64,000 bases of DNA, from contig CAMYLA010000003.1 of assembly GCA_947259095.1 (NCBI GenBank), positions 1-64,000 on the forward strand, in the 5' to 3' direction. Every line of letters starts with the position of its first letter. Within the stretch, counting starts at the first letter, position 1. Of this stretch, positions 37,201 through 57,146 are shown piece by piece. Made by a program: the position numbers and the translations under genes. Below the pieces are notes generated by a model that worked only from the letters and a program-made list of their open reading frames with translations, did not search any database and was not told the DNA's origin. The stretch is from an uncultured Acidimicrobiaceae bacterium. GTDB taxonomy: Bacteria; Actinomycetota; Acidimicrobiia; Acidimicrobiales; SZUA-35.

Positions 37201-38853
37201 CTCGACGGCATTCACGCCGAGCTGGCGTCTACGCAGGGCGATCTGGATGGTGTTCAGGCCGAGCTGGCGTCTACGCAGTCCGATCTGGATGGTGTTCAGG
37301 CCGAGCTGGCATCCAAGCAGGGCGATCTGGGCGGTCTTCAGGCCGAGCTGGCATCCAAGCAGGGCGATCTGGATGGTCTTCAGGGCGAACTGGCTGCGAA
37401 GCAGGGCGAACTGGACAACAAGCAGGGCGAACTGGACGGCAAGCAGGCGGAGCTGGACAGGGCGGTGGCGGCATCTCAGCGCTCGGTCGCCGCCTTCGCC
37501 TCCCCGTCACCATTGGCGACCAAGCCGCCGTCGTTGGTCGACGACGAGGCGGAAACCTCGGACGGTCCTGGCGACGACGAAGCACCCGCGCAGGCCGACG
37601 AGCCGGTCACCGATGAAGCGGCCGGCGAAACGCAGGCAGAGGAGGCCGCCACCGAAGAAGAGGCTGGTGGGGCCACGGTCGACGAGGCCGCAACCGACGA
37701 AGCGGCCGCTGACGAGGGTGGCGACACCGACGGTGACGCGTCGGTTGATGAAGCGGTGGCCGAGGAGAAGACCGATGAAGCCGGCCCGGCCACCGGGCCC
37801 CGGCCGTCGGTGTTGGAAGGCGAGAGCGAAGAGGCGGGCGGAGACGTCGACCTCGAAGACGAACCGGAGAAGGTCGATCTGTCATGGGCCGGATCGGTCG
37901 ATGGCCCCGCAATCGAGGCGCCGTCGGCCGACGACGAGAGCCACGATGAGCTGGCCGAGGTCCAGGAGGCGGTGGCGGCCCAAGTCGACAAATTCGGCGG
38001 CATCCCCGCCGCCGAGGAGCTGACATCGGCCGCTGAGGCCGACGACGAGGACCTCGACGAGATCAGCGATCTGATCTCCCAGAAGGTGAGCAGCTTCAAC
38101 GAGGAGGATGGGCCGCTGGAGATCGACCTCGCCGCCGATGCGGTGGACGACGACCGCCCGTTCGGAGTGTCCCCGATCGACGGTCCCTTCGAGGACGATT
38201 CGCCGCTGGGTGCACCACCTTCGGACGACACGACCCAGCTCCTGCCCCGGATCGCTCCGACACCGCCGAGTATCTTCGCCGATGCAGACGGGCCGGCCGT
38301 TGTCGACGAGCGGCCGGAGCGACCGCCGATCCTCGGTGGCCTCGACGGCCGACCGCTGGAGGATCCGACCGAGCCGGGGACCCGCCGTCTTCCCGGCCGC
38401 AAACGCCGTGAGATCGACGTCCCGAGCGACATCCTCGACGATGAGGTGGCGGTGGCCCAGTTCGTTGTCTCCTCGCCCGATGTGGTCCTCCTGGTCGACG
38501 GTGACTCGGTGGCGAAGCTTGGATGGCCCAGCCTTCCGGTCGCCCAGCAGCGCGACGCCCTGGTCACCTACCTCGCCGATCTGTCGACCACCAGCGGTGC
38601 CGCACCGGACGTGGTGTTCGACGGCCGGATCGGTGACGATCAGTCGCTGCCCGCCTCCCGAGCGGTGCGGATCCGGCTGAGCACGCCGCCGACCGAACCG
38701 GCGGCAGCCCTCGACGAGCTGGTCGACGCCTACCCCGAACAGTGGCCGATCGCCCTGGTCACCGATGACCCGGACCTGGCCTCCTCGGCCAACGAACGGG
38801 GTGCTGCGGTGTTGAACAACGGCCAGCTCCTCGACCTCTTCATCGCCGAGTAG
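34234..38853 (+). CDS. Giant YacP-like NYN/PIN protein with coiled-coil and heptad-repeat insert
   Basis: 1539 residues. Residues 1-95 match the N-terminal domain of actinobacterial YacP-like proteins (ASMRSFLYVSELPRRAITVA, EFRARVASRATEESVGRAGYLWLHRPKGW). Residues 236-1085 are an almost unbroken coiled coil, ending in 21 near-identical heptads (about 933-1079). Residues 1090-1400 are acidic and Thr/Glu/Asp-rich. From 1400, DVVLLVDGDSVAKLGWPSL, APDVVFDGRIGD and ALVTDDPDLASSANERGAAVL match the NYN/PIN ribonuclease fold. The usual VDGYN is VDGDS and the SADD acidic pair is TEPAA, so catalysis may be weakened or lost. Typical relatives are about 300-450 residues long. ATG at 34234 is used (TGATG overlap), a TTG one codon before is possible. 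Confidence 0.85.
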   Translation: MGAESLQAACELAFVVARDDSESDYPVDSPASMRSFLYVSELPRRAITVAQQAIEDDSEFRARVASRATEESVGRAGYLWLHRPKGWAQEFEMLTADLDDDHDGLDVPEPDPELEQVYNELVAAPVELVRAQPPEPQEPDYSFDPGETFTPASPPIADAAMADSAMAGVGPVGGPDDIRQEPPPPPFDFSSSPLGLAAVTNQADHQQPVEGDFPPLAEAGHPPTEANGGEPDFEANALESELSSLRGLVDRLAGERDTVVNSIAAVPSPEGYESSQVDSAMDTDVRALESDLATARHELSIAQADLATARHEREEAQRLHSETLKRQVQLEKELAAVRDERIEIENRASDAQVSAISLDDKLSRTQHILDEAERERSVVKSQLEVMTSERNQIREDRIAVKAERDELLARVIEVEEKSGGVDVGELSASNKSLTTELEATSRELARMIAQAESFEEQIKTSTSAADSLKTQNVELTSRLADTELALETTRTQHQALKVDSERLAAEVGTLRAERDGLQSQLTELQASLAEVLSEQAETRQRNDTDRRTLNELRVERDVLLARMNDLEQSDREYESRINSLVRERDDLVDARDELINERGQLRGEAAASAADRDQLHEKARSLEARVGPLENDLLAERRQREELANRLLELDDLTEQSAAEIDRLTEERDTLSASLDDLQADLVAAAEVRVEKEQLASQLEQSEHRYEGEAERARQKITELTEQLSQAETSRTSLDQRLAEAVGELETIRLEHEDGSRELARIKVAQDNTSAALSEANLELEEVRHDFNEAKAELGRLRASEDDARVALVDAESAVHAIRAELDTKQTEIDTNRAEIEANRVEFGSKLSEIDEVRSELQAVRSELDAKQAESETKQAELDRAGADLQALHAELDLKQAESETRRADLERVEVELEAGKADFRGAQAELETKQATLDGVQAELASTQSELASTQGDLASTQGELASTQGDLASTQGELDGVQSELASTQADLDGIHAELASTQGDLDGVQAELASTQSDLDGVQAELASKQGDLGGLQAELASKQGDLDGLQGELAAKQGELDNKQGELDGKQAELDRAVAASQRSVAAFASPSPLATKPPSLVDDEAETSDGPGDDEAPAQADEPVTDEAAGETQAEEAATEEEAGGATVDEAATDEAAADEGGDTDGDASVDEAVAEEKTDEAGPATGPRPSVLEGESEEAGGDVDLEDEPEKVDLSWAGSVDGPAIEAPSADDESHDELAEVQEAVAAQVDKFGGIPAAEELTSAAEADDEDLDEISDLISQKVSSFNEEDGPLEIDLAADAVDDDRPFGVSPIDGPFEDDSPLGAPPSDDTTQLLPRIAPTPPSIFADADGPAVVDERPERPPILGGLDGRPLEDPTEPGTRRLPGRKRREIDVPSDILDDEVAVAQFVVSSPDVVLLVDGDSVAKLGWPSLPVAQQRDALVTYLADLSTTSGAAPDVVFDGRIGDDQSLPASRAVRIRLSTPPTEPAAALDELVDAYPEQWPIALVTDDPDLASSANERGAAVLNNGQLLDLFIAE
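37030..37470. repeat. 21 tandem 21-bp heptad units
   Basis: The unit is 21 bp, encoding seven residues of type ELASTQG / DLDGVQA / ELASKQG. It runs 21 times without interruption inside the giant coiled-coil gene. Neighbouring copies are nearly identical at the DNA level (GAGCTGGCGTCGACACAG and GATCTGGATGGTGTTCAG types alternate), pointing to recent expansion and likely length variation. Confidence 0.9.
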
Positions 38854-40345
38854 CGTCCGGCTGCCCATTGCGGGCCCGGACCGGCTGCGATCGGGCTGGT
38901 TTCGGCCATGCGGTGAACGCCGGGGCAAGCGCCTTCAGCGATCGCTGCCGCAGCGCGCCGAGCCACAGCCCGCCGCAGTAGGCCAGATCGTCGACCACGC
39001 CCATTGCCACGTCCACGGCCGCCGCTTCTGGTGATCTCGGCCCGTCCAGCAACCGGCGGGCGAACCCGGCGGCGGCGATCGTAGCCAACCTGCGGCGTTG
39101 GGACGGCAGGACCAAGGCAACAACGGCCAGGAACGGGGCCCAGGCCCTCACGACTGCGGTCAGGACCGACAGCCCGGCGTACCAGTGGCCTCTGGCGGTG
39201 AGCGACAACGCTTCGACGGTGAGATCGGGCATCGGCCGGATCTTCGGCCGAAGCGCCAATCCGGTCCCGATGATGGTGACCACGGCCAGGAACGGCCGGC
39301 CGAACACTGCCAGGGCGAAGACAAGCAGGCTCCATGGTGAGATCCTGACCGGCGCAACGGCCGAGCCATGACGGGCCGCCAGCGGGGCCGCCGAACTGCC
39401 GTAGGCGATCCGCTGACGGGCCATGGCGGCCAACGTTGCTCTCGGCGAATGACCGACCTCGACCGCCGGCTGGTACCGGACGGTGCCGATGCGGCCCAGT
39501 CGCCACACCAGATCGACGTCCTCGCCGTAGCGTAGGGCCGGGTCGAAGCCCCCGACCGAGCGTACGGCGTCGGTGGATGCCACGAGGCAGGCGGTCGGGA
39601 CGTACGGGACCGGCCGCCCTGGACCGACCAACGAATCGGCCGGTCCGAGGTCGAGTGGCGATCGCCTGGAGTCGAATCGGGCCACCGCGTGCCGGGTCGG
39701 CATCGACCGGACCCGGGGAGCTGTGGCCACCATGGTTCGGTCGTCGAGCAGCGCCGCCAGCCGGTGGAGCTCGGCCGGACCGGCTATCACGCCGGCATCG
39801 AGGAACACCACCACCGGATCGTCGACCTCGGCCAGACCGGTCTGGCGGGCCGGCCCCGGCCCACCGGTTCGGGACCGTCGAAGCAGCCGTACCGGCCGGT
39901 CGCCGATATCGATCGGTGGGGTCGAACCGTCGTCGACCACGATCACCGCCAGCTCGGACGTCGACGTCGTGGCGAGAAGGTGATCGAGAGTCGCTGCCAG
40001 CCCCGATGGGTCGTCCTTGACCGGGATGACCACCGCCAACCCGGTCTGGCGACCGGACCCGGTCGGGAGCCGGAGATTGGCCATGCCGTTGCCGCTCAGC
40101 CGGCGGGCCAGGGCTTGGTGAGCTCGACCGTTGCCGACCGGTTGACCGGCGAACCACCGCTTGACCAGGTCGGCCCCGGCCGGGCTGAGCCGGGTGATGG
40201 TCAGGGGCGAGCCGCCGATGAGGATGCGGAACCCGGCCCGGGTCCGAAGGTCGCCTGCCGGCTCCAGCGTGGAGCCCGACGGTATCGGGGCCGATATTGG
40301 ATCATCGGGGCCGGGCGTGAGGTCGGAGGCCTCGGGCCGGGTCAT
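38840..40345 (-). CDS. mftF: Mycofactocin glycosyltransferase MftF
   Basis: 501 residues. An N-terminal recognition region (about 1-95, GFRILIGGSPLTITRLSPAGADLVKRWFAGQ, resembling the MftF start) is followed by a GT2 glycosyltransferase: TGLAVVIPVKDDPSGLAATL, VIVVDDGS, VVVFLDAG and GGFDPALRYGEDVDLVWRLG. The C-terminal part has several membrane segments (FALAVFGRPFLAVVTIIGTGLAL, WYAGLSVLTAVVRAWAPFLAVVALVL). MftF adds beta-1,4-glucose units to the mycofactocin head. Its ATG overlaps the stop of the VWA gene (ATGA), and it is the last gene of the fixX-etfB-mftE-moxR-VWA-mftF operon. It is convergent with the giant gene and overlaps it by 14 bases. Confidence 0.9.
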   Translation of the reverse strand: MTRPEASDLTPGPDDPISAPIPSGSTLEPAGDLRTRAGFRILIGGSPLTITRLSPAGADLVKRWFAGQPVGNGRAHQALARRLSGNGMANLRLPTGSGRQTGLAVVIPVKDDPSGLAATLDHLLATTSTSELAVIVVDDGSTPPIDIGDRPVRLLRRSRTGGPGPARQTGLAEVDDPVVVFLDAGVIAGPAELHRLAALLDDRTMVATAPRVRSMPTRHAVARFDSRRSPLDLGPADSLVGPGRPVPYVPTACLVASTDAVRSVGGFDPALRYGEDVDLVWRLGRIGTVRYQPAVEVGHSPRATLAAMARQRIAYGSSAAPLAARHGSAVAPVRISPWSLLVFALAVFGRPFLAVVTIIGTGLALRPKIRPMPDLTVEALSLTARGHWYAGLSVLTAVVRAWAPFLAVVALVLPSQRRRLATIAAAGFARRLLDGPRSPEAAAVDVAMGVVDDLAYCGGLWLGALRQRSLKALAPAFTAWPKPARSQPVRARNGQPDATRR

Positions 40346-41208
40346 TGCACCAGCGCCCGCAGTGCGTCGAGGACCGAGAACGGCCCACCGACTTCGGCCA
40401 CCCGAGCGCCGCAGCTCGCGGCCAACTTCCTGGCGTGATCCGGCTCGTCCTCGGGGGCCAGGATCGTCAGTTCGTCGAGGGCCTTGGCGATCGGGGTCGG
40501 GTCACCGCCGGTGGTGACCTCGGCGTCTGACAACAGGATGGTCAATTTCCTGGAGGCCCGGGATCCGGCCAGCTGCAGTTGTGCGGCATGCAGGGCCAGC
40601 TGGACGTCGGTCGTTCCATGGCCCCGCAACGCCAGCACTTCGGCAACCACCGATTCCGGCGACTTGGTCTGGTTCAGTTCCTTGATCGAGACGACACGAT
40701 CCCCGAACGCCAGCACGGCGAACTCGGCCGGCGCCCGCCAGCTGCAGACCGCAGCGGCCAGGGCGGCGCTGGCCAACCGCTCACCGTTCATCGACCCCGA
40801 TCGGTCGACCAGCAGGCAGATGGCGGTCCGGGGTCGCTGCCAGGCGGTGGTGGTGAGCTCGTCGATGGCCGGCGGCCGACCTTCCGCCTTGGCCGACACC
40901 AGTTGATCGAGGCTCCCGTCGATGTCGATGTCGCCACCGTCGATGGTGGCCTTGGTCCTGACCAACTTGCCGACGCCCCGGGTCCGGGCGGTGCCGGTTC
41001 TCGTCAGGTCCAGCACCAGCCTGCCCGCCAGCTGCCTGGCCAGCCTTGCCAGCTCCGAATCGGTGGCCTGGGCCATCTTGGCCAGCAGTTCCAGCGCTTC
41101 GTCCGGGTCTTCCGACAACAACTCCTCGAACTGCTCCGTGTCGAGTTTCCCCAGCTCAGGGGATATGTCGGAGAACGATTCGTTCCGATCGAGGTCGCGG
41201 CGGCTCAC
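40342..41208 (-). CDS. VWA-domain protein paired with MoxR
   Basis: About 288 residues from a GTG at 41208, though the frame stays open upstream and the true start may be nearer the MoxR stop at 41271. After a charged helical segment (ELGKLDTEQFEELLSEDPDEALELLAKMAQ) comes a von Willebrand A domain with an intact MIDAS: CLLVDRSGSMNGERLAS (DxSxS), GHGTTDVQLALHAA (Thr ligand) and LLSDAEVTTGGD. MoxR-VWA pairs act as AAA+ chaperones that activate or load cofactors into partner enzymes. Position between moxR and mftF inside a mycofactocin operon suggests such a role here. The gene overlaps mftF. Confidence 0.88.
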   Translation of the reverse strand: MSRRDLDRNESFSDISPELGKLDTEQFEELLSEDPDEALELLAKMAQATDSELARLARQLAGRLVLDLTRTGTARTRGVGKLVRTKATIDGGDIDIDGSLDQLVSAKAEGRPPAIDELTTTAWQRPRTAICLLVDRSGSMNGERLASAALAAAVCSWRAPAEFAVLAFGDRVVSIKELNQTKSPESVVAEVLALRGHGTTDVQLALHAAQLQLAGSRASRKLTILLSDAEVTTGGDPTPIAKALDELTILAPEDEPDHARKLAASCGARVAEVGGPFSVLDALRALVQ

Positions 41209-41270
41209 CGTTCGACGTCGGTCATCGGCCAGGGCCTTCTCGGCGTCCTCACCGGTCAGGATGCGTTCGT

Positions 41271-42353
41271 CTAGGTTCGGGCTGCCGCCGGGCGGCTGGG
41301 GGCTTTTCCCGCCGGGTCCGAACTCGCGTCGCCGGTAGTCTCGTCCGGTGGAGCCCCGACGATCGAGGTCCACAGCTCGGTGACGATCTCCTCCGGCGTG
41401 GCATTCGTCGACTCGTGCAACCGGATCCGGCCAGACAGGGCGGCCAATGCACAATCCAAACCGATGTGGAAGTCGGTGGCCGGTTGGCCCCGCAGCGCCC
41501 CCAGATCATTCGACAGAGCCAGCAGATCGACCGCACCCCGGACCGATGAGCCGACCCGGACCTCGGAGTGGTCTCTCGTCGCCCGGACCACCTGAACCAC
41601 CTTGTCGATGTGATCACGGGGAAGATCCGACGTCATGGCGGCGATGTCGACTTCCTCGGCATCGCTCTGGTAGCCCATGGCCACCCGGCAGACCCGATCG
41701 TAGATGGCACCCGAGATTCGGGCCGTGCCAACCGCATCGAAGGGGTTCATGGCGGCAACGAACCGGAACCTGGGGCTCGCCTCGACCCGACCCAGCCGGG
41801 GGATGGTCAACTCACCCTCGGACATCACCGTCACCAGCAGGTTGAGCGTTTCCTCCGGCACCCGGTTGATCTCTTCCAGGTAGAGGATCCGGCCATCCCG
41901 CAAGGCCCGAACCAGCGGCCCGTCGACCCACACCGCCTCGGAATATCCGGCCTCCATCACCTGGGCTGGATCGAAATGGCCGGCAAGGCGGGCCGGGGTG
42001 AGCTCGGCATTGCCCTCCACGAACTCCATTTCCTGATGCCCGGCGTGGGAGATGGCCCGCAGCAGTGTGGACTTGCCGGTGCCGGGTGGGCCCTCCAGGA
42101 GCAGATGCCGGCCGGCCATCAACGACGCCACCACCAGCTCGGCCTCCCTGGACCGTCCGACGACCTCACGGCGGAGCCTCGCCAGCGTTTCGGGGCCATA
42201 GATCTCGGCCGGGGCGCCGTCAGCGGTCAACGTGGCCACCTCGAGGAGGTCGGGCGCAGCCGCCGTGGTCGGTCGCTGCTGGCTGCTGTGATCACTCGGC
42301 AATCCTTTTCGGTTCTGTTCCGGTCGATTGGGTACGGGTCGGTCGGCCGGCAC
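41271..42353 (-). CDS. MoxR-family AAA+ ATPase in the mycofactocin operon
   Basis: 360 residues from a GTG. Walker A is the canonical GPPGTGKST (unlike the DVPGVAKT of the other MoxR at 17.5 kb), Walker B is ILYLEEINRVPEETLNLL, and FVAAMNPFDAVGTARISGAIYDR holds sensor I and the arginine-finger region. That places it nearer the NorQ/CbbQ-GvpN branch, whose members partner with VWA proteins to insert metals or remodel enzymes. Downstream lies the VWA gene; upstream, 15 bases away, mftE. No such pair is part of the described core mycofactocin pathway. Confidence 0.9.
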   Translation of the reverse strand: MPADRPVPNRPEQNRKGLPSDHSSQQRPTTAAAPDLLEVATLTADGAPAEIYGPETLARLRREVVGRSREAELVVASLMAGRHLLLEGPPGTGKSTLLRAISHAGHQEMEFVEGNAELTPARLAGHFDPAQVMEAGYSEAVWVDGPLVRALRDGRILYLEEINRVPEETLNLLVTVMSEGELTIPRLGRVEASPRFRFVAAMNPFDAVGTARISGAIYDRVCRVAMGYQSDAEEVDIAAMTSDLPRDHIDKVVQVVRATRDHSEVRVGSSVRGAVDLLALSNDLGALRGQPATDFHIGLDCALAALSGRIRLHESTNATPEEIVTELWTSIVGAPPDETTGDASSDPAGKAPSRPAAART

Positions 42354-42368
42354 GGACCCAAACAGTAG

Positions 42369-43091: not shown

Positions 43092-43119
43092 CGACGCCAG
43101 CGGTCTCGCCGCCTCCCGG

Positions 43120-44001
43120 CTAGTCGGCGGCAGGCTGGTCATCGAGGTAGCCCCACTCCCGAAGGCGGTTGAGCACCGTCTCGGCCGCCTCATCGGCGTC
43201 GAGCTCCAGTTGTTGGGAGGCCGGCCGTTCCCGATCGACCCCGGTGAGCTGTTTGATCCGGTCCGGTGTCGAACCGTCGGGGGCGGCCAGCATCCTGGCC
43301 CGGGGACGGAACGGCCCGGACCCCACCACCGAGGTCGAGCCGGGACCGGCCGTGCTCGGCAGCTCCCGGACGTGGATGGGCAAGTCGGGCGAACCGATCG
43401 CCGCCCCCAGCGGGGCTCGGCGGAGCTCCTGACCGCCCTCGAACGACAGCACGGTGGCCCGATCGGTCGACAGCCGCTCCCGCCGCCCCTGGTCGAGCCG
43501 ACGTTCGGCCACCAGCGGTTCGGCGATATGGCCCCCGGTCGTGCACTCCAGGCCCACACAGCCCAGGGCCTGGCCGAACCCCAACTCATGGGCCACGAAG
43601 GCCGGCACCGACCCCGACCCGCGATCGAGGCTGTGATTGCCACAGAAGACAAGTGAGGCCCGGCCGCAGGCCGAGGCCAGGCCCCGGGCCACGTCTCGAC
43701 TGGTCAGCAGGTGGGGTTCGTCGCAGTGGATCCGGTAGGCGGAAGACGCCCCGTGGGCCATGGCCTCACGTAGCCCGGCGTCGGCCGCCGCCGATCCGAC
43801 CGAGATCGCCACCACCTCGGCGTTGCGAACGTCGGCCACTCGAAGCGCCCATTCGAGCGCCGCCCGGTCGGCCGGGCTCAGGCCGCTGAAGCGCTCGTCA
43901 GTGGTGATCGTGCCGGTCAGGGGATCTATCTCGGGCCGCGTCGGAACCCACTTGAGGCAGGCGGCGATCGTTACCGGCGGTGCGGCCTGACCGTCCGGCA
44001 A
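43120..44001 (-). CDS. etfB: Mycofactocin-associated electron transfer flavoprotein beta subunit
   Basis: 293 residues. IAACLKWVPTRPEIDPLTG is the standard EtfB start, SPADRAALEWALRVADVRNAEVVAISVG matches the conserved nucleotide-binding helix-strand, and the later MAHGASSAYRIHCDE and LVFCGNHSLDRGSGSVPAFVAHELGFGQALG segments are the flavin/AMP domain. EtfB forms a heterodimer with EtfA (47.9 kb) carrying electrons from dehydrogenases to an ETF:quinone oxidoreductase. The start is a TTG at 44001, three bases after the fixX stop. It is separated from etfA by several genes on the same strand. Confidence 0.85.
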   Translation of the reverse strand: MPDGQAAPPVTIAACLKWVPTRPEIDPLTGTITTDERFSGLSPADRAALEWALRVADVRNAEVVAISVGSAAADAGLREAMAHGASSAYRIHCDEPHLLTSRDVARGLASACGRASLVFCGNHSLDRGSGSVPAFVAHELGFGQALGCVGLECTTGGHIAEPLVAERRLDQGRRERLSTDRATVLSFEGGQELRRAPLGAAIGSPDLPIHVRELPSTAGPGSTSVVGSGPFRPRARMLAAPDGSTPDRIKQLTGVDRERPASQQLELDADEAAETVLNRLREWGYLDDQPAAD

Positions 44002-44004
44002 CGG

Positions 44005-44262
44005 TCAGCTCCGTTTGAAGACCACGCCGTGGCCACCGTCGGGGTAGGTCCAGGCGATGGCGCCCTCGTTGTTGCACACCAGGTAGCAGGTGCCGCACTC
44101 GAAACACTGTTCGTAGTTGAACAGGATGCCGCCGTCGCTGGTGGGGACGAAGAGGTTGGCCGGACAGCACACCACACAGGCCTTGGTGGTGCAGGACCGG
44201 CAGACCTCGGTCTCCACGGTGATGTGGGCTCGTGAACCGACCCGGAATTCCACCGTGGACAT
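44005..44262 (-). CDS. fixX: FixX-like ferredoxin
   Basis: 85 residues with 4Fe-4S ferredoxin cysteines: VCRSCTTKACVVCCPANLF and QCFECGTCYLVCNNEGAI. The order and size match FixX, the ferredoxin partner of FixC (ETF dehydrogenase) in Fix/ETF electron transfer. The ATG at 44262 follows GAGG by six bases; an ATG at 44313, one base after the DUF937 stop, would add 17 residues. Tight spacing with etfB shows one operon. Confidence 0.88.
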   Translation of the reverse strand: MSTVEFRVGSRAHITVETEVCRSCTTKACVVCCPANLFVPTSDGGILFNYEQCFECGTCYLVCNNEGAIAWTYPDGGHGVVFKRS

Positions 44263-44314
44263 GCGATCCTCGAACGAGATCGTCGATGTGGGGGGCCGGC
44301 TCACGAGCGTCATC

Positions 44315-44541: not shown

Positions 44542-44729
44542 GTTGTTTCCTTTCACGGAGCCCACGCACCAGCTTTCCGGACGGAAAGAAGACCCCGTAG
44601 CAGCCAACGGTAGCGGTTCCGCCGCTGGTCGCGGATGGTCGGATCGATCGCTGGGCCGCCGACGCCGTCGTGGGATGTCGGCGGTCGGGGGTCGGTCGGC
44701 GGTCGCCGGGGTGGCCGGGTCGGTTCGAG

Positions 44730-45233
44730 TCAGCGGCCGCTGCGATCGGGCGGGTTGGCACCGAGCTCGCTGGTCGTTCGAACCTCGATGCCGCCTCGGG
44801 GGCGCTGCGTCACCGAAACCCTGACCCACTGCGGCGCAGCGGTGGTCCACACCTCCCGGGCCACGGCCGCCGAAAGTGCCTCGGCGAAGATGGGCCGATC
44901 CCGGAAGCTCCACAGGTAGAGCTTCAGCGACTTGGATTCGACGCAGCTGCGCTCCGGCGCGTACTCGATGATGATCGACGAGAGGTCGGGCTGGCCGGTG
45001 ACCGGGCACAGCGAGCTCAACTCGTCCGAGGCGAAACGCACCGTCGAGCAGCCCTCGGGGGCGGGAAAACACTCGACATGGTCGACGGGGTGTCGAACGG
45101 TCCGGCCGAGGATCGACAGGTCGGGTGCCTCCCCATCGGCGGCCTTCCCGGCGGGCCGGGCCGAACCTCGGGAACCGGGCCCGTCCGACGGCTCGGCGCT
45201 GCTCTGGTCTCCGTCGGTCGGCTGGGCGCTCAT
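44730..45233 (-). CDS. queF: NADPH-dependent preQ0 reductase QueF
   Basis: 167 residues of the tunnelling-fold QueF type I. Signature: FASDELSSLCPVTGQPDLSSI with the catalytic Cys that forms the covalent thioimide with the nitrile, and CVESKSLKLYLWSFRDRPIF, the QueF motif binding NADPH. It reduces 7-cyano-7-deazaguanine to preQ1 on the way to queuosine. The first 45 residues are a Ser/Gly/Asp-rich extension not needed for the fold. ATG at 45233 has TAGGGT seven bases upstream. QueG, a later step of the same pathway, is at 57.6 kb. Confidence 0.93.
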   Translation of the reverse strand: MSAQPTDGDQSSAEPSDGPGSRGSARPAGKAADGEAPDLSILGRTVRHPVDHVECFPAPEGCSTVRFASDELSSLCPVTGQPDLSSIIIEYAPERSCVESKSLKLYLWSFRDRPIFAEALSAAVAREVWTTAAPQWVRVSVTQRPRGGIEVRTTSELGANPPDRSGR

Positions 45234-47870: not shown

Positions 47871-48869
47871 TCAGCCGTCGAGCAGGGCCAGGAGCCGATC
47901 GAGTACCGCCGGACCGTCGCACACGATGGCGAGGTCGGCCATGCCCATCATCGGGCAATGGGGATCGAGGTTGATGCTGATGACATGGCTGGGGGAGCCG
48001 AGTCCAGCGGTGTGTTGCACCGCACCGGAGACGCCGAGGGCAACGTAGAGCGACGGGTCCACGATCACGCCGGTGGTCCCGATCTGCCGCTCGACCGGGA
48101 GCCAGCCCCAGTCGGTGACCACCCGGGTGCCGCCGGTGGAGGCCCCGAGCCGGTCCGCCAGTTCTCGCAGCCGGCCGAACGCTTCCGGGGACCCGAGGCC
48201 GGCCCCGCCACCGATGATCCGGTCGGCTTCGGCCAGGTCCATCGTCGATGGGTCGGCAGGCAGCTCCTCGAGCAGCACCGGATCGAGCCCGAGGCCATCC
48301 CCGGTCACCGTTCGATCGACGGTCGGCGAGGCCGGCGGTGGAGTCGGCGGTTCGATCCGGATCACCGTCGGCGGCCCCGCCCCGCCGACCGACTCGACAC
48401 CTCGGACACCCGGTTGCAGGGTGGCGACAACCGGCCCGGCCAGGCTGAGCGTCTCGGTGATCCGCCCGCCGAATCTCGTGACCTCGGCCATCGTCGGATC
48501 GAATCTGATGGCCGAGGCCACGAAGTCACGGTCCAGAACGGCGGCCAGCCGGGGCCCGAGATCACGACCGTCGGGAGAGGCCGGCAACAACATGTGGTGT
48601 CGGTCCGCGGTCACCTCTCGGCCCGGGAGGTCGAGGTTGGCCACGACCTCGACCACCGCCTTGGCCCAGGCGCCGGCGGCGTAGTTCCCCAGCTCCACGG
48701 TGTGGATCGACCGGGCGGCCCGACCCAGGTCGTTGGCGGCATCGAGGCAGCCGGAGCCGACCAGCAACGTCGTACCGCCGGCCTCGGCCGCGGTCTCGTC
48801 GGCACCCAGCGGGAGGACACCGTTGCGGACCGGGATCACCGCGATGATCGGGCGCTCGCCGTTGGTCAT
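47871..48869 (-). CDS. etfA: Mycofactocin-associated electron transfer flavoprotein alpha subunit
   Basis: 332 residues. The end, GVIVDPSLYVALGVSGAVQHTAGL and VISINLDPHCPMMGMADLAIVCD, is the FAD-binding signature of EtfA. The first half is the less conserved alpha-beta domain (IIAVIPVRNGVLPLGADET). The ATG at 48869 overlaps the stop of the OYE-1 gene (ATGA). It ends the OYE2-OYE1-etfA operon. Its partner EtfB is encoded 4 kb away, so the two subunits are not in one transcript. Confidence 0.9.
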   Translation of the reverse strand: MTNGERPIIAVIPVRNGVLPLGADETAAEAGGTTLLVGSGCLDAANDLGRAARSIHTVELGNYAAGAWAKAVVEVVANLDLPGREVTADRHHMLLPASPDGRDLGPRLAAVLDRDFVASAIRFDPTMAEVTRFGGRITETLSLAGPVVATLQPGVRGVESVGGAGPPTVIRIEPPTPPPASPTVDRTVTGDGLGLDPVLLEELPADPSTMDLAEADRIIGGGAGLGSPEAFGRLRELADRLGASTGGTRVVTDWGWLPVERQIGTTGVIVDPSLYVALGVSGAVQHTAGLGSPSHVISINLDPHCPMMGMADLAIVCDGPAVLDRLLALLDG

Positions 48870-50932
48870 GGCGGTGATACCAGCGACACCTGAGGCCGCG
48901 ACCCTGTGCCATCGAGCAGCATGGCGCTGAGTTCGTCTGCCACCCGGCGGCCGTCGATCACCGCCGAGTGGGCGCGGCGGGGGGCGAGGCAGTCGCCGAT
49001 ACGTCGGAGCTGCGGTCGGGCGGTGCCCCCCGGTGTCGGACCCCGGAGGGCGAAGTAGAGGTCCGCCTTGGGTTGGGGCGCAGCGGCGAGGACGATCCAG
49101 TCCGGGGATCTGGTCTCCTGGACGCCGGTCGGGTGGTGCAGCAGGTCGAGCGTGCCGTCGCCGTAGCCCATGGCCACGAGGTCGGTCGACTGGACGATGC
49201 CCTTGGCCGAGGCCCGAACCCACCACGTCTCCATGTCGAGGGTGATGCCGAGGTCCTGGCCGACCACCATGGCCTTCGTCACGACCTCGACCCGGCAGCC
49301 TCGATCGGCCAGCAACTCGGCCACCGAGGTGGCCTGATGGAAGCCAACGTCGTCGATGACCAGGACGGACCCGGTCGGCTCGGCCCGGCCGGACACCACG
49401 TCGAGGACGTCGACGATGGTTCGGCCCGCGTCGTCATCGGTCGGGGGTGCCCAGTACGGTCGGGCCGGCGTGGCGCCGGTGGCGATGACGACGCCGTCGG
49501 GGGCCAGCGAGGCGATGGTCTCGACCGTCGCCTCGGCTCCCAACTCGATCTCCACCCCGAACCGTCGACACTCTGCGGCCAGGTTCCGAACCAGGTCACC
49601 GAACTCGGCCCGGTTCGGCACCGATGCCGCCAGGCGAACCTGGCCCCCGAGCTTGTCGGTGGCCTCCAGCAGGGTGACCGCCAGCCCGTTTGCCGCCGCC
49701 GACGAGGCGGCCTGGAGGCCGGCCGGGCCGCCGCCGACCACCAGGAGCCGAGGCCGTCGGGCCCGCTTCGAGGTGAGCCGGACCGAATCCGGGGGTCGGC
49801 CGAGGGTGGCCTCGCGCCCGGTGTAGGGATTCTCGATGCAGCCGAGCCACCGGTTGAGGCCCATCCGGCCAACACACTCCTGATTGCACGACAGGCACAG
49901 GCGGGTGTCCTCGGGTCGACCGGCCTTGGCCTTGTTCACGAAATCAGGGTCGGCGATCTGACCTCGAACCACCCCGATCATGTCGGCGTGACCGGCGGCC
50001 AGGGCCCGTTCGGCCTGGATCGGATCCTTGAACCGGCCGACACCGATCACCGGCAGGTCCACCGCCTTGCGAATGGCCGACGGGATGAACATGGCGTACT
50101 CGGGCGGGATGTGCATCGAGGCCTCGATCATGAACAGCGAGGCGGTGGCAACGCCGATCGAGGTGTTGATGTAGTCGACCCCACCATTGCGTTCGATCTG
50201 TCTGGCCACCTCCACCGCGTCGTCGATGGTGGTGCCATCGTCGATCAGCTCGTCGCCGCACAACCGGACCCCCAGCACCGGCTCGGGACCCATCCGGTGG
50301 CGGACCGCGGCCACGATCTCATGGAGGATCCGAGCCCGGTTCTCGGCTGTACCCCCGTAGTGGTCGGCTCGGTGGTTGGTGGCAGGGGAGAGGAAGCCTC
50401 GAACGATCGACGAGTGGGAGCACTGGAGCTCGACGCCGTCGAACCCGCCCTCGATGCAGCGGGCCGCCACCACCGCATAGGACTCGATGATCTCGTCGAT
50501 CTCGTGCTGGCCGACCGCCTTCGGGACCTCACGGAACAGGGGGTCGGGAACCGGCGACGGGGCCCACACCGGCAGCCTGGTGTACATCGAGGAGGCCTGG
50601 CCCCCGTTGTGATTGATCTGGGCCAGGATCGGCACGCCGTGGCGGTGGACCGCGTCTGTCATCTTGCGGTAGCCGGGCACCACGTCGGCGTGGAAGGCGT
50701 GGATCATCTTCTCGTATGGCCAGTCCGTGGGATGGACTGAGTGCTCCTCGGTGATGATCAGCCCGGCCCCGCCCGCCGCTCTGGCCTCGTAGTACGCCGC
50801 ATGCTGATCCGAGGGCTTGCCGTCCTGGGTGGCGTAGTTGGTCAGGTGGGCGCTGAACACGATGCGGTTGTCGACCGTGATCGACCCCAGCGCCAGCGGG
50901 CTGAACAGGTAGCGGTAGTGTCCACCGCTCAT
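48866..50932 (-). CDS. Mycofactocin-system OYE/FadH-family flavoprotein 1
   Basis: 688 residues in the 2,4-dienoyl-CoA-reductase layout. Residues 1-345 form the OYE FMN barrel: FSPLALGSITVDNRIVFSAH, HNGGQASS and LQCSHSSIVRGFLSPATN. Then CLSCNQECVGRMGLNRWLGCIENP holds the 4Fe-4S cysteines, followed by a pyridine nucleotide/FAD domain starting LLVVGGGPAGLQAASSAAANG. Usual role: reduction of enoyl substrates with electrons from NAD(P)H through FAD and Fe-S to FMN. Two such proteins beside mycofactocin genes are described as mycofactocin-system members. The overlap with etfA and OYE2 is ATGA on both sides. Confidence 0.88.
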   Translation of the reverse strand: MSGGHYRYLFSPLALGSITVDNRIVFSAHLTNYATQDGKPSDQHAAYYEARAAGGAGLIITEEHSVHPTDWPYEKMIHAFHADVVPGYRKMTDAVHRHGVPILAQINHNGGQASSMYTRLPVWAPSPVPDPLFREVPKAVGQHEIDEIIESYAVVAARCIEGGFDGVELQCSHSSIVRGFLSPATNHRADHYGGTAENRARILHEIVAAVRHRMGPEPVLGVRLCGDELIDDGTTIDDAVEVARQIERNGGVDYINTSIGVATASLFMIEASMHIPPEYAMFIPSAIRKAVDLPVIGVGRFKDPIQAERALAAGHADMIGVVRGQIADPDFVNKAKAGRPEDTRLCLSCNQECVGRMGLNRWLGCIENPYTGREATLGRPPDSVRLTSKRARRPRLLVVGGGPAGLQAASSAAANGLAVTLLEATDKLGGQVRLAASVPNRAEFGDLVRNLAAECRRFGVEIELGAEATVETIASLAPDGVVIATGATPARPYWAPPTDDDAGRTIVDVLDVVSGRAEPTGSVLVIDDVGFHQATSVAELLADRGCRVEVVTKAMVVGQDLGITLDMETWWVRASAKGIVQSTDLVAMGYGDGTLDLLHHPTGVQETRSPDWIVLAAAPQPKADLYFALRGPTPGGTARPQLRRIGDCLAPRRAHSAVIDGRRVADELSAMLLDGTGSRPQVSLVSPP

Positions 50933-53139: not shown

Positions 53140-53314
53140 CGGCTCGAGCCCTTGGCGAGTGGCGATGGGAATGGCTTGGTCGTTCGGCCGCCGGCCGCAG
53201 CTTGGAATGACATTGTCCGAAGATCGTAGTCGGCATCGATGACCGAGCCCGTGTCGAGCCCGTCGGCCGAGCCGCACGGGGCCGGGCCTGCTCCGGAGCC
53301 ACAGCGCCGCTGGT

Positions 53315-53320
53315 TAGACT
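53315..53320 (+). promoter_or_regulatory. Leaderless-type -10 TAGACT
   Basis: TAGACT ends eight bases before the ATG at 53329, supporting this start over the ATG at 53239. Confidence 0.4.
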
Positions 53321-53328
53321 CGGGCGCT

Positions 53329-54084
53329 ATGGAGTCGACAATCCGGCCCGACCAGCAGCAGGCGTTCGACAGCAAGTGGGTCGGTGATTACGAGAACGGC
53401 CTCGTCACCGAGGGCCACTACGTGTGGGTCCGCCAGCGCCGAATGCGGCTGGCCGTCGATCGCACGTTCGAGTTGCTCGATCGGGACCCTGCCGAGCTGA
53501 CCGCACTCACCATCTGTGGCGGCACCGGGGGGGAGGCCTCCTACCTGGCCGACCGGGGGTTCGGCCAGGTCACCAACTCCGATTTCTCGGCCGGGGCGCT
53601 CGAGGTGGCCGAGAAACGGGACAGCCGGCTTCTGGTGCGGACGATCGACATCGAGAACAACGACGTGCCAGACGAGTCATATGACGTGGTCATGGTCCAG
53701 GACGGGCTGCACCACCTGACCCGGCCGGTCCAGGGCTTCAACGAGATGATCCGCATGGCCCGGCTGGCCGTCATCGTGGTCGAACCCCATCAAAGCCTGG
53801 TCGGGCGATTGATCGGCACCGAATGGGAGAAGGTCGGTGACGCGGTGAACTACGTGTTCCGCTGGGATCACGACCTCTTCGCCCAGACCGCCAGGAGCCA
53901 GCTGGTGAGGGAGCCGACCGACATCTGGACGAAACGGCTGTGGGATCACAATCAGGCGGTGTCCAAGCTCAGCAACTGGACCGAGGACGAGCCGAGGAAG
54001 ATGGCCATCACCCGCACCGCCTACGGCATGCTGACCCCGGCCAACCGGTTGGGCAACATGTTCCTCGGCGTCCTCATCAAGTAG
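53329..54084 (+). CDS. SAM-dependent class I methyltransferase at the mycofactocin locus
   Basis: 251 residues with a Rossmann methyltransferase core: LTALTICGGTGGEASYLADRGFGQVTNSDFSAGALEVAEK (motif I modified to ICGGTGG instead of LDVGCGTG), VRTIDIENNDVPDESYDVVMVQDGLHHL (motifs II/III). The flanking RQRRMRLAVD region and the C-terminal helix are unassigned. Its divergent position from the OYE operon and opposite direction to mftC suggest a role in cofactor tailoring, for example methylation of the mycofactocin glycan as known in some mycobacteria, but homology to that enzyme was not tested. Confidence 0.75.
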   Translation: MESTIRPDQQQAFDSKWVGDYENGLVTEGHYVWVRQRRMRLAVDRTFELLDRDPAELTALTICGGTGGEASYLADRGFGQVTNSDFSAGALEVAEKRDSRLLVRTIDIENNDVPDESYDVVMVQDGLHHLTRPVQGFNEMIRMARLAVIVVEPHQSLVGRLIGTEWEKVGDAVNYVFRWDHDLFAQTARSQLVREPTDIWTKRLWDHNQAVSKLSNWTEDEPRKMAITRTAYGMLTPANRLGNMFLGVLIK

Positions 54085-54205
54085 CGCAGCGCCGCTCGGA
54101 GGCTCGGCACCGGTGGTTCGACGTCCGTAGCGATTCGGTGATGGCGGTGGCACAGCGCTGGTCGGTCTGTATGACCTCGCGGACGAAGGCCGACCGGGCG
54201 GTCGG

Positions 54206-55324
54206 TCAGACCCGGGTCGGGCCCAGCTCGACCGGGACCGGTTTGGAGTGGTTCGAGGTCGGCCGGGGCAGCTCCTCGGCACCGACGGCGGCCAGGGGAA
54301 CCGTGCCATGACCGCTGACGCATTCCGGGTCCGGTCCGTCCAGGGGCAGGCCGGTGAAGAACTTGGCCGCCATACAGCCGCCCTGGCAGGCGTCGAACTG
54401 CCCACAGCTGGCGCAGGCGCCCGCCGATTGTGGTTCCCTGAGCTCGGTGAACAACGTCGATGCCTTCCATACCCGAGCGAAACCGCCATCGTCCCGGACG
54501 TTGCCCGCCCTGAACTCGTCATGAAGTACGAACGGGCAGGCGTAGACGTCGCCGACCGGGTCGATCAGGCATACCACCCGGCCTGCGCCGCAGAGGTTGA
54601 GCCCGGGGAGGTTCTCGTCGCCGAGGGCGTTGAGGTGGAAGAACGAGTCGCCGGTCAGCACGTTCGGCCGGTCGAGCAGCCACCGGTACAGATCCACCTG
54701 TTGATCCTGGGTCGGGTGCAGTTGGTGCCAGGTGTCGGCGCCCCGGCCAGACGGGCGGAGCCTGGTCAGCCGCAGTTCCGCGCCGTAGGCATCGGCCAGC
54801 GCCTCGAACCGGTCGAGCTGGGGGATGTTCTGCCGGGTCATGACCACGCTGATCTTGAACGGGCCGAAGTCGGCCGAGGCGAGGTGATCCATGGCCGCCG
54901 TGGCGGTGGCGAACGATCCCTGGCCCCGCACCGCATCGTTGGTGGCGGCATCGGCCCCGTCGATGGAGATCTGGATATCGGTGTATGGCATGGCGGCCAG
55001 CCGCCGTGCCCCGTCGGCGTCGATGCGGGAGCCGTTGGTGGAGAATTTCACACCGACACCGTTGCCGGTGGCGTAGTCGACCAGCTCGTAGAAGTCGGGC
55101 CGGATCATCGGCTCACCGCCGCCGATGTTGACGTAGAAGACCTGGAGATCCCGCATCTCATCGATGACCGCCCGTGCCTCGGCGGTGCTCAGCTCTCGAG
55201 GGTCTCGCCGACCAGATGAGCTGAGGCAGTGCACGCAGGCCAGGTTGCAGGCGTAGGTCAGCTCCCAGGTCAGGCAGATCGGGGCGTCGAGGCCAAGTTT
55301 CAGCTCGTCGGTCAAGGCGCTCAT
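54206..55324 (-). CDS. mftC: Mycofactocin radical SAM maturase MftC
   Basis: 372 residues. The radical SAM cluster motif is CNLACVHC at 26-33 (CxxxCxxC), followed by NIGGGEPMIRPDFYELVDY. The C-terminal SPASM region has CGAGRVVCLIDPVGDVYACPF and CASCGQFDACQGGC, giving two auxiliary clusters. MftC oxidatively decarboxylates the C-terminal Tyr of MftA and makes a Val-Tyr cross-link. Its ATG overlaps the mftB stop (ATGA). The mftABC order and direction are classic. The tail runs about 25 residues past the last cysteine. Confidence 0.95.
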   Translation of the reverse strand: MSALTDELKLGLDAPICLTWELTYACNLACVHCLSSSGRRDPRELSTAEARAVIDEMRDLQVFYVNIGGGEPMIRPDFYELVDYATGNGVGVKFSTNGSRIDADGARRLAAMPYTDIQISIDGADAATNDAVRGQGSFATATAAMDHLASADFGPFKISVVMTRQNIPQLDRFEALADAYGAELRLTRLRPSGRGADTWHQLHPTQDQQVDLYRWLLDRPNVLTGDSFFHLNALGDENLPGLNLCGAGRVVCLIDPVGDVYACPFVLHDEFRAGNVRDDGGFARVWKASTLFTELREPQSAGACASCGQFDACQGGCMAAKFFTGLPLDGPDPECVSGHGTVPLAAVGAEELPRPTSNHSKPVPVELGPTRV

Positions 55325-55674
55325 CTGCTGCTCCTGGTCGTCTCCGGGCGGGTCCGGTCGATCTGGTCCCGCTCACCGATCTCGTCGATCGGTTGCAGGA
55401 AGTCGGATCGGGCAAGGGCGGTCAAGGCCGTGGCGAACGCCGGCCACCGCCGGTCATCGAGGCCGGTGGCGTCGAACGCCGCCCGCGGGCTCTCGTGATC
55501 TTCCAGCGATCGGACGAGTTCGACCAGGTCCGGTGACCGGAGAAAGTTCAGCCGCCGGTTGTCGTAGTGGTAGGCCAGTGCTCCGAAGGGCTCCGGTCGC
55601 AGCGAGACCCGCGGATGGAGCCGCCATCGGCCTGCCATCCCATCGATGCCGGTCACGTCGGACGTCGGTTGCAC
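55321..55674 (-). CDS. mftB: Mycofactocin precursor chaperone MftB
   Basis: 117 residues. The body WRLHPRVSLRPEPFGALAYHYDNRRLNFLRSPDLVELVRSLEDH fits the PqqD-like RiPP recognition fold of MftB, which binds the MftA leader and delivers it to MftC. Start: GTG at 55674 (VQPTSDVTGIDGMAG), 23 bases downstream of the mftA stop; a GTG at 55713 inside mftA is also open. The last ATGA overlaps mftC. Confidence 0.9.
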   Translation of the reverse strand: MQPTSDVTGIDGMAGRWRLHPRVSLRPEPFGALAYHYDNRRLNFLRSPDLVELVRSLEDHESPRAAFDATGLDDRRWPAFATALTALARSDFLQPIDEIGERDQIDRTRPETTRSSR

Positions 55675-55697
55675 GAGTTGGTCGGTGCGGCCGTTGA

Positions 55698-55829
55698 TCA
55701 GTAGACGCCGCACATGCCGTCGATGGAGATCTCCTCTACCAGGAGTTCCTCCTCGACGAGGGCAGCGTCTTCGTGGTCGGTCTCGAGCGGGGTCGCCGTC
55801 TGGTCGACAGCGGTCGGTTCGGTTTCCAC
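55698..55829 (-). CDS. mftA: Mycofactocin precursor peptide MftA
   Basis: A 43-codon gene too short for many gene callers. The product begins with a Glu/Asp/Thr-rich leader and ends LLVEEISIDGMCGVY, which is the diagnostic MftA C terminus IDGMCGVY. The final Val-Tyr is the substrate for MftC. GTG start at 55829 has GGAGGA five bases upstream. The stop is 23 bases before mftB. Confidence 0.96.
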   Translation of the reverse strand: METEPTAVDQTATPLETDHEDAALVEEELLVEEISIDGMCGVY

Positions 55830-55838
55830 GGTTCCTCC

Positions 55839-55844
55839 AACGTA
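55839..55844 (-). promoter_or_regulatory. -10-like TACGTT upstream of mftA
   Basis: On the minus strand TACGTT lies nine bases before the GTG of mftA and just upstream of its GGAGGA. The GGAGGA implies a short leader, so the true promoter may be further upstream. Confidence 0.3.
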
Positions 55845-55982
55845 TCGCCCGCCCGCCCCGGGGCGTTCGGGCTCATCTCGGCGCCAACCGGCCTGGCCGG
55901 CGTGGACACGATGGTAGCCGCACGAAGGGGGAGGCGGCGAAGTCTCGGCTCCGTCGGCGGCCCATCGAGCGGAGGGCCGGAA

Positions 55983-57146
55983 CTAACGGAGGTCGAAGCA
56001 GACCTTGATCGACCCGAGCGAGCCGGCCGAGGCGGCGTGGGTCATGGCCCGCTCGTAGTCCTCCAAAGGGTATGTGGCCGAGACCAGCCGACCGAGGTCG
56101 GCCGCCTCCGCCAGTTCGATCGCCATGTCGAAGCTCCGACGGGAGGTGCCGTCGGCCAGTTGCTCGGTACCGTAGGTATAGGCCCCGACCAATTCGGTTT
56201 CCCGATGCCACAGCGCCGTGAGGTCCACCGAGACCCGGCCCGGCATGCCGACGAGCACCACCCGGCCCCGGGGACGGGCCGTGCCGATGGCCTGGTCGAC
56301 CGAGGCCGCGGAGCCGACCGCATCGATGACCACGTCGGCGCCACCGGAGAGATCGTCACCGATCATGAAACTGCCGGAAGCCCGGCGCACGGCCCGGCCG
56401 AACTCGGTCGGTTCGACCACCAGGTCGGCTCCCAGCGAGCGGGCCAGAGCCTGCTGTTCCGGGTATTTCGCCCCCACGATGACCGTGGCGGCGGGGCAGA
56501 AGTGGCGAATGGCGGCCAACGCCATCAGCCCCATGGTGCCGGCGCCAAGGATGGCCACGGTCTGACCTTCGACGATCCGAGCCTTCATTGCGGCGTGGAC
56601 CCCGACCGCAGCGGGCTCGACCATCACAGCCGCCTCGTCCGACATCGTGTCCGGGACCGGGTGGAGCTGGCTGTCGTGAGCGACGAAACCGGTGGACCAG
56701 CCGCCGCCGGTGGATGCGCAGTAGCCGGTCTGGATCCCCGGTTCGAGGTGACCCCCGACCAGGTGGCGGTAGTCCTCGCCGTCGCCAGGGGCCGCACCGG
56801 GGAACGGTGGCTGGAAACCCCGGGCCTCGTGTCCCAGCACCGGTTCCAGGACGACACGGACACCGTCTTCGCGGTCGCCGACGACCTCATGGCCCGGGAT
56901 GAACGGGAACGACACCCACGGCTCGAAATAGCGCGACGACTTGCCGTCGACGGTGGCGAGATCCGATCCGCAGATCCCGGCCAGGCGCGTCTTCACCCGG
57001 CGCCAGCCCGGGCCCGGGAGTTCGATGTCGTCGGCTTCGACCAGCGCCAGCGGACCGGTGCTGGCACCACTCCCGGGGCGGATCCGAGACGAGATGGCGG
57101 CCGCCACATAGCGGGCTTCCTTGCGACTGAACTCCAGTGCTCTCAC
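55983..57146 (-). CDS. Zinc-type medium-chain alcohol dehydrogenase
   Basis: 387 residues of the MDR superfamily. RLAGICGSDLATVDG holds the catalytic-zinc Cys and its following GSD. PFIPGHEVVG supplies the GHE His-Glu, and VEPAAVGVHAA is the usual second zinc segment. VAILGAGTMGLMALAAI is the NAD(P) Rossmann motif. The structural-zinc Cys cluster is not obvious (STGGGWSTGFVAHD in its place). It is upstream of mftA on the same strand, 150 bases away, so it may be a substrate-side dehydrogenase using mycofactocin, which is inference from position only. Confidence 0.85.
   Translation of the reverse strand: MRALEFSRKEARYVAAAISSRIRPGSGASTGPLALVEADDIELPGPGWRRVKTRLAGICGSDLATVDGKSSRYFEPWVSFPFIPGHEVVGDREDGVRVVLEPVLGHEARGFQPPFPGAAPGDGEDYRHLVGGHLEPGIQTGYCASTGGGWSTGFVAHDSQLHPVPDTMSDEAAVMVEPAAVGVHAAMKARIVEGQTVAILGAGTMGLMALAAIRHFCPAATVIVGAKYPEQQALARSLGADLVVEPTEFGRAVRRASGSFMIGDDLSGGADVVIDAVGSAASVDQAIGTARPRGRVVLVGMPGRVSVDLTALWHRETELVGAYTYGTEQLADGTSRRSFDMAIELAEAADLGRLVSATYPLEDYERAMTHAASAGSLGSIKVCFDLR

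Follow-up and report, generated by a model that had tools for sequence, protein, structure and literature searches.

The formation of 3-amino-5-[(p-hydroxyphenyl)methyl]-4,4-dimethyl-2-pyrrolidinone (AHDP) by MftA, MftB, MftC and MftE, on the way to the redox cofactor mycofactocin, is established, and MftD, which acts on AHDP, uses oxygen. MftD is reported to deaminate AHDP to premycofactocin (PMFT), and a Mycobacterium smegmatis delta-mftD strain is reported to accumulate AHDP without mycofactocin congeners, so that MftD is needed there for PMFT (PMC7491314, PMC8728441). The MftD family (TIGR03966) was described from most, though not all, species with mycofactocin (Haft 2011, PMC3023750), and MftG, which couples mycofactocin oxidation to respiration, is reported missing from about 25% of mftC-containing genomes (PMC11778925). 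For 17 clusters from Saccharopolyspora a TIGR03997 gene and no mftD are reported, with S. erythraea cited as a maker of methylated mycofactocin; antiSMASH 6.1.1 labeled these clusters ranthipeptides, likely because they have no mftD (PMC11162802). Two Old Yellow Enzyme (OYE) flavoproteins and both subunits of an electron transfer flavoprotein (ETF) are named in NCBIfam as mycofactocin-associated; the grouping itself is therefore already known. Here we analyze a locus of this kind in a 64,000-nucleotide stretch of DNA (the window) from an uncultured Acidimicrobiaceae bacterium, in which the genes for OYE1, OYE2, EtfAB, FixC and FixX accompany mftA, mftB, mftC, mftE and mftF.

In the genomes we examined, the module of OYE2, ETF and FixCX is found wherever MftD is absent, can fill the slot of mftD, and switches against MftD on the MftC tree. 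We consider it rather probable that the locus encodes an MftD-free pathway in which OYE2-ETF-FixCX acts as an alternative AHDP dehydrogenase and not as a route of reoxidation; that MftD is dispensable where the module is present, which is the plainer claim, we hold with more confidence. MftA, MftB, MftC and MftE would make AHDP in the usual way, and OYE2, with flavin mononucleotide (FMN) and a 4Fe-4S cluster, would oxidize the 3-amino group of AHDP or of glycosylated AHDP in MftD's stead, giving PMFT. Electrons from OYE2 would pass to the dedicated EtfAB, then to FixC-FixX and the quinone pool, and MftF would glycosylate. We infer that OYE2 is the catalyst, that ETF and then quinone are the acceptors, and that no oxygen would be needed. 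The genes concerned, scored against curated NCBIfam cut-offs or, for other gene calls, with Pfam models, are as follows.

55698..55829, minus strand: mftA, precursor peptide of 43 amino acids with a GTG start (TIGR03969, 50.9 bits, above cut-off); C-terminus ISIDGMCGVY
55321..55713, minus strand: mftB, RRE chaperone, start of the open reading frame uncertain (TIGR03967, 102.3 bits, above cut-off)
54206..55324, minus strand: mftC, radical SAM/SPASM maturase (TIGR03962, 604.7 bits, above cut-off)
50929 to about 53214, minus strand: OYE1, FadH/OYE flavoprotein 1, start uncertain (TIGR03996, 677.3 bits, above cut-off)
48866..50932, minus strand: OYE2, proposed ETF-linked AHDP dehydrogenase (TIGR03997, 930.5 bits, cut-off 793.15)
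47871..48869, minus strand: etfA, mycofactocin-associated (mft_etfA NF038209, 344.9 bits, above cut-off)
46557..47864, plus strand: fixC, ETF:quinone oxidoreductase-type flavoprotein (NF007450, 338.5 bits, below the cut-off of 466)
44005..44313, minus strand: fixX, ferredoxin partner of FixC (NF011993, 48.8 bits, below the cut-off of 166)
43120..44001, minus strand: etfB, mycofactocin-associated (mft_etfB TIGR04503, 232.1 bits, above cut-off; Pfam ETF)
42369 to about 43112, minus strand: mftE, creatininase-family peptidase, start taken from the profile match (TIGR03964, 259.3 bits, above cut-off)
38840..40345, minus strand: mftF, glycosyltransferase (TIGR03965, 312.7 bits, above cut-off)

The precursor with its IDGMCGVY-type end, the adjacent mftB and mftC, and mftE and mftF above their cut-offs identify a mycofactocin locus. 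FixC and FixX score below their cut-offs, though FixC and FixX are the top-scoring NCBIfam models for them.

The window belongs to contig C3 of G000, a metagenome-assembled genome (MAG) of 6.39 Mb with 96.5% completeness and 7.1% contamination. A single match in G000 exceeds the mftD cut-off (TIGR03966, 470.85 bits). It lies on C179, a contig of 5348 bp that carries mftD-P450-methyltransferase. Bases 595-5348 of C179 match contig C31 of genome G004 in three pieces with 94.9, 93.7 and 98.1% DNA identity, and the C179 MftD is 98% identical to that of G004, whereas eight window proteins are just 41-79% identical to their G004 counterparts. The tetranucleotide distance from C179 to the window, 0.169, falls within the range among the window's own chunks (0.113-0.190). 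Because C179 is nearly identical to the G004 contig while the window proteins diverge from those of G004, C179 is probably a contaminant from a congener, that is, from another species' genome, and we set it aside as an exception to the split between MftD and OYE2. For mftG, no match in G000 exceeds the TIGR03970 cut-off of 387.45 bits, the best reaching 329 bits; the models TIGR04542 and NF038210 were not part of this search. The 329-bit protein is a GMC oxidoreductase (contig C15, 48000-49493), a possible MftG-like paralogue by its score, and similar proteins with 319-332 bits occur in genomes G003, G023 and G011. The sequence-only reading had left two options: that mftD, mftG and mftR lie elsewhere, or that other means serve part of the pathway. 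The second option agrees with the lack of a credible mftD in G000; of the first there remains the one mftD match on the probable contaminant, with no mftG above the TIGR03970 cut-off in the whole genome.

We scored two sets of genomes for these genes. Set A holds 80 of 102 mftC-containing genomes of the same phylum, collected through two mftC searches (left out were G006, G014, G030, G266 (partial mftC), G340, G345 and 16 further genomes of family f63). The module was counted here as OYE2 plus etfA, adjacent or dispersed, as the full gene set is not seen in every genome, owing to contig ends and unfetched stretches; G000 was scored as lacking MftD, with C179 set aside, and G036 as having it on a partial match of 463 bits. 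With this scoring, MftD is present in 58 genomes (57 full-length matches plus G036) and OYE2 in the other 22; no genome has neither and none has both. OYE2 exceeds its cut-off in 20 of the 80, two more fall slightly below it (G381 at 764 bits and the truncated G431 match at 787 bits), and no OYE2 score outside these 22 genomes is higher than 562 bits. mft_etfA exceeds its cut-off in 18/80 genomes, all among the 22; in the other four (G381, G234, G364 and G380) a divergent etfA (118-134 bits) adjoins OYE2, with fixC and fixX matches and an mftA tail alongside and no match to the window's EtfB beside OYE2. In 12 of the 22 OYE2 genomes nothing MftD-like is matched at E<=1e-60. The rule that a genome has MftD or OYE2 also holds in seven module genomes in which etfA and mftC lie on separate contigs, some of them perhaps through assembly breaks. 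In the three genomes of family f65, MftC is divergent (325-340 bits, 40-41% identical), the precursors end in VDGICGVY and the gene order is the compact mftC-OYE2-etfA-fixC-fixX; one of their OYE2 proteins is short of one cluster Cys (CVADNQMC).

The sequence-only reading saw in the ETF/FixCX and OYE proteins a dedicated route by which mycofactocin is reoxidized or used. On this account they would reoxidize mycofactocinol as MftG does, or use mycofactocin as a donor for quinone reduction, and an unseen enzyme would perform the MftD step. A relay through ETF and FixCX would indeed terminate at quinone, and TIGR03970 exceeds its cut-off in none of the module-containing set A genomes. MftG ties mycofactocinol to respiration in mycobacteria, and the genomes with mftC and without MftG are presented as an open question (PMC11778925). 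However, 54 of the 58 set A genomes with MftD also lack a TIGR03970 match above cut-off, so that the module tracks MftD and not MftG, a pattern that reoxidation leaves unexplained. Since MftG is missing from most relatives with mftD too (TIGR03970 exceeds its cut-off in 4/80 genomes), the module is no simple stand-in for MftG. The tie of these genes to mycofactocin is upheld, and a role mainly in reoxidation, given that their presence tracks the absence of a biosynthetic enzyme, appears unlikely.

For set B we took 120 genomes from the family to which Amycolatopsis xylanica belongs; mftC is present in 53. mftD is present in 42 of the 53 and OYE2 in 31 (26 above the cut-off and five at 680-706 bits); 33 genomes have mftD without the full module, 11 have the module only, nine have both and none has neither. 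Among the 67 genomes without mftC, none has mftD or OYE2 at the limits used. All 31 OYE2 loci were fetched: etfA-fixC-fixX-etfB adjoin OYE2 in 20, and none of the four does in 11. The 11 loci without ETF genes, all OYE1-OYE2 clusters, lie in genomes with mftD (11/11), and the mftD-less genomes have EtfAB-FixCX beside OYE2 (11/11; Fisher p 0.002, uncorrected for kinship). A strict exclusion between MftD and OYE2, which held in set A and in 50 named genomes described below, is rejected by set B, where 20/53 genomes carry both; as the OYE2 loci split by the presence of ETF-FixCX, the rule is "at least one". In nine genomes with both systems, the 12-13 kb around mftD contain no other match to the mft genes of the window, and in G543 a separate locus comprises mftB-C-D. 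G543 and G576 each have two copies of mftC, of which one adjoins mftD and the other OYE2. Redundant isozymes occur in other pairs of aerobic and anaerobic enzymes, and the genomes with both systems are compatible with such redundancy and not with strict exclusion.

The opposite switching is reflected in the MftC phylogeny, calculated by a quick method from 133 genomes plus the second copy of G543, with G000 and G036 labeled as scored above. On this tree each of the two traits undergoes at least 21 changes. For 10 independent pairs that differ in the module and lie on supported branches, MftD differs in the opposite direction in 7.9, in the same direction in 0.0 and not at all in 2.1 (averages), and a sign test gives a median p of 0.0078 (range 0.0039-0.0312). 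With independent traits, one would expect 22.6 of the 133 genomes to have neither, against 0 observed, a comparison that is uncorrected for kinship.

A scan with the OYE2 alignment, using conserved peptide patterns, found 80 OYE2 loci in named genomes. The closest by OYE2 are from Acidimicrobiales/Acidimicrobiia MAGs; five loci titled Bifidobacterium breve, whose OYE2 is 66-68% identical to that of the window, appear to be wrongly titled. EtfA is seen in 64/80 of the stretches and MftC in 31/80. We tested 50 of the 80 genomes for mftD (the 30 left out include look-alikes of set A, such as L101, L102, L103 and L105, and doubtful titles; at least L106 still overlaps the set A genome G019), and MftD exceeds its cut-off in 0/50.

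The two systems also alternate on plasmids, for which our counts cover the plasmid records alone. Twelve plasmid records contain mftC: six, all from Streptomyces, carry OYE2, four carry MftD, and two from haloarchaea carry a module resembling OYE/ETF/FixC; at the limits used, none of the 12 has both an OYE2-type module and MftD. An OYE match on a Shinella plasmid, 37% identical, lies outside the mftC records. The plasmid of Streptomyces sp. NBC_00564 has the order mftA-B-C-OYE1-OYE2-etfA-fixC-fixX-etfB-mftE, that of Streptomyces sp. NBC_00080 the order mftA-B-C-D-E-F. The module, placed between mftC and mftE, therefore occupies the place of mftD in this one pair of plasmids, the gene order having been read on one of the six OYE2 plasmids. 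In the plasmids of Haloterrigena turkmenica and Halolamina, genes for a flavin oxidoreductase, etfA, a FixC-like protein, a 4Fe-4S ferredoxin and an ETF subunit are clustered, and no mftD is annotated in these stretches; the oxidoreductase of H. turkmenica reaches 625 bits with TIGR03997 (cut-off 793) and is 37% identical to OYE2 of the window. A gene annotated as VWA also borders both haloarchaeal modules. It seems to us an even chance that OYE2-EtfAB-FixCX is a second, respiration-coupled and possibly oxygen-independent PMFT synthase that repeatedly replaced or joined MftD in Actinomycetota and is also in use in haloarchaea, with the amine dehydrogenase/ETF/quinone relay of amine catabolism recruited for making the redox center of a cofactor.

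The residues of OYE2 point to an amine dehydrogenase in part. The PDB proteins related to it over the full length are 2-naphthoyl-CoA reductase and FadH, together with trimethylamine dehydrogenase, the amine oxidase HisD and two histamine dehydrogenases. In the 4Fe-4S Cys motif that follows the TIM barrel, C346, C353 and C365 are invariant and C349 is present in 18/19 rows of the alignment. H173 aligns with a His of histamine dehydrogenase and HisD; we take His179 of 3k30 (numbered by counting) to be this active-site His, and His172 to be its equivalent in trimethylamine dehydrogenase, where it presumably has a catalytic role. H173 and D303 are both kept in 39/39 ETF-linked OYE2 proteins (19 of the 22 in set A, 20/20 in set B) and in 2/2 of the haloarchaeal proteins. 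In the 11 OYE2 proteins without ETF genes, H173 is Gln in nine and D303 is changed in nine, and none keeps both residues; OYE1 of the window also has Gln at the place aligned with the His. The His173 found in 80/80 of the named loci is not independent evidence, because these loci were found by conserved peptide patterns. In ene-reductases of the FadH type, which use NADPH, Tyr166 is catalytic and GxGxxG is the NADPH motif. OYE2 has Ser175 at the position of Tyr166, and its third domain has VIDDVGFHQATS at the place aligned with GxGxxG, a motif that histamine dehydrogenase and HisD lack as well.

The module might replace MftD with OYE1, FixC or ETF itself oxidizing AHDP, and OYE2 doing something else. 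This would fit the loci with OYE1 and OYE2 and without ETF-FixCX: as all 11 are in genomes with mftD, it is the ETF part that tracks the loss of MftD there. However, at E<=1e-150 OYE1 is not matched in G381, G040 or any of the three f65 genomes (weaker OYE1-like matches, 31 and 44% identical, are present in the loci of G381 and G040), the haloarchaeal stretches show one OYE-like gene, and H173 and D303 are jointly kept in OYE2 solely when it is ETF-linked. We regard a catalyst other than OYE2 as quite unlikely.

Several points weigh against OYE2 as a dedicated substitute for MftD. Both reductases (2-naphthoyl-CoA reductase, FadH) and amine dehydrogenases are among its top-scoring homologues, and a fold comparison of its structural model, which is weak over residues 111-138, 260-278 and 349-363, gives similar scores for 2-naphthoyl-CoA reductase, FadH and histamine dehydrogenase and so does not discriminate between them. 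The trimethylamine/histamine dehydrogenase family attaches FMN covalently through a 6-S-cysteinyl Cys; in OYE2 Leu30 is at the place of this Cys in histamine dehydrogenase, and the Tyr beside the active-site His is replaced by Gln. The proposed scheme leaves OYE1 without a step. OYE2 co-occurs with mftD in 20/53 set B genomes, and the full module does so in 9/53. No EtfA is seen in 16/80 of the named stretches, though four of these are shorter than 5 kb and one is a contig of G419, whose etfA lies elsewhere. Finally, one MAG cannot prove the absence of mftD.

Two further explanations concern the product and the direction of electron flow. Clusters without MftD might yield a different cofactor that keeps the amine, with the OYE and ETF proteins as its users. 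The lack of MftD would fit, and amines are substrates for some members of the OYE2 superfamily. However, the mftD-less Saccharopolyspora clusters carry TIGR03997, and S. erythraea is reported to make methylated mycofactocin, the lack of mftD being a statement about the cluster (PMC11162802); a kept amine is therefore very unlikely. Alternatively, EtfAB-FixCX might bifurcate electrons from NADH and supply the radical SAM enzyme MftC with a low-potential reductant. FixABCX complexes do bifurcate electrons in other bacteria. This gives no reason for the link to the loss of MftD, and genomes with MftD and without the module have MftC too, which makes bifurcation the most improbable of these explanations.

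Every gene that the sequence-only reading named was confirmed by profile matches and translations, including four of the following neighbors of the pathway genes; the fifth, queF, lies inside the locus and is a neighbor outside the system.

55983..57146, minus strand: zinc-type alcohol dehydrogenase (top NCBIfam match 92 bits, below cut-off)
53239..54084, plus strand: S-adenosylmethionine-dependent methyltransferase (Pfam Methyltransf_11)
44730..45122, minus strand: queF, preQ1 synthase, start uncertain (TIGR03139, above cut-off)
41271..42353, minus strand: MoxR-type AAA ATPase (Pfam AAA_5, 101.7 bits; also bpMoxR)
40342..41271, minus strand: CoxE-like VWA protein, start uncertain (Pfam VWA_CoxE, 44.5 bits)

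The coupled starts of that reading were found as ATGA junctions at mftB/mftC, OYE1/OYE2, OYE2/etfA and VWA/mftF. Strand is the sole basis for the three proposed transcription units: mftA-mftB-mftC, OYE1-OYE2-etfA and fixX-etfB-mftE-moxR-VWA-mftF are groups on the minus strand, with fixC and the methyltransferase gene read from the plus strand. The MoxR/VWA pair (40342-42353) had been placed with the ETF/FixCX and OYE genes. It lies beside mftE/mftF in 7/29 of the relatives' stretches, five of the MftD type and two with the module, and since it occurs with both types it falls outside the module. The methyltransferase, also counted as a member, is near the locus in 1/29 of these stretches, some of which are short, and is probably outside the mycofactocin system; its 21.8 bits to the MftM model (cut-off 200) rule it out as MftM. 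The zinc dehydrogenase, at 34 bits against a cut-off of 440, is ruled out as a member of the family dependent on N,N-dimethyl-4-nitrosoaniline (NDMA). It adjoins mftAB/C in 20/29 stretches of both the MftD and the OYE2 type, with 68-87% identity, and from this position we consider it a candidate mycofactocin-dependent dehydrogenase outside the NDMA-dependent family. Just past the locus lies queG (57573-58790), and an open reading frame of 1540 amino acids with SMC-like coiled-coil matches (34231-38853) adjoins mftF.

Mycofactocin owes its redox-active keto group to MftD, but 22/80 of the mycofactocin genomes in set A and 11/53 in set B are without mftD. Naming its substitute would assign a function to a dedicated ETF and to two flavoprotein families of NCBIfam, would aid annotation tools and would open the step to direct tests in ordinary actinomycetes. 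In the open-licence literature searched, TIGR03997 is mentioned in a single paper, and we found no paper joining mycofactocin with an electron transfer flavoprotein, none pairing it with trimethylamine dehydrogenase among the matches listed, and no printed statement of what the OYE/ETF partners replace. The canonical cluster of mftA-F with mftG and mftR, as on the NBC_00080 plasmid, shares mftA, B, C, E and F and the IDGMCGVY-type precursor with the window, which differs in having OYE1-OYE2-EtfAB-FixCX in place of mftD and no MftG above cut-off. The window genes are members, above cut-off, of the NCBIfam families "mycofactocin system FadH/OYE 1 and 2" and "mycofactocin-associated ETF alpha/beta"; these names give no reaction, and the substitution for MftD is proposed here. 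The mycofactocin-like clusters of Saccharopolyspora resemble the window in their TIGR03997 gene and in having no mftD in the cluster; the passage on these clusters is silent on ETF/FixCX, on testing whole genomes for mftD and on any substitute for MftD, and the word "flavoprotein" is absent from its main text (PMC11162802). OYE2 resembles FadH (1ps9) in its three-domain fold and 4Fe-4S motif, and differs from it at Tyr166 and in the NADPH motif. With trimethylamine/histamine dehydrogenase it shares the FMN/4Fe-4S fold, whereas the Cys for covalent FMN, the Tyr by the His and the substrate differ. A close parallel in gene neighborhood is the trimethylamine-dehydrogenase-like enzyme Pno of a nicotine degrader, which, like OYE2, has genes for EtfAB and an ETF:quinone oxidoreductase nearby, the role of ETF being itself a prediction in that account (PMC5500553).

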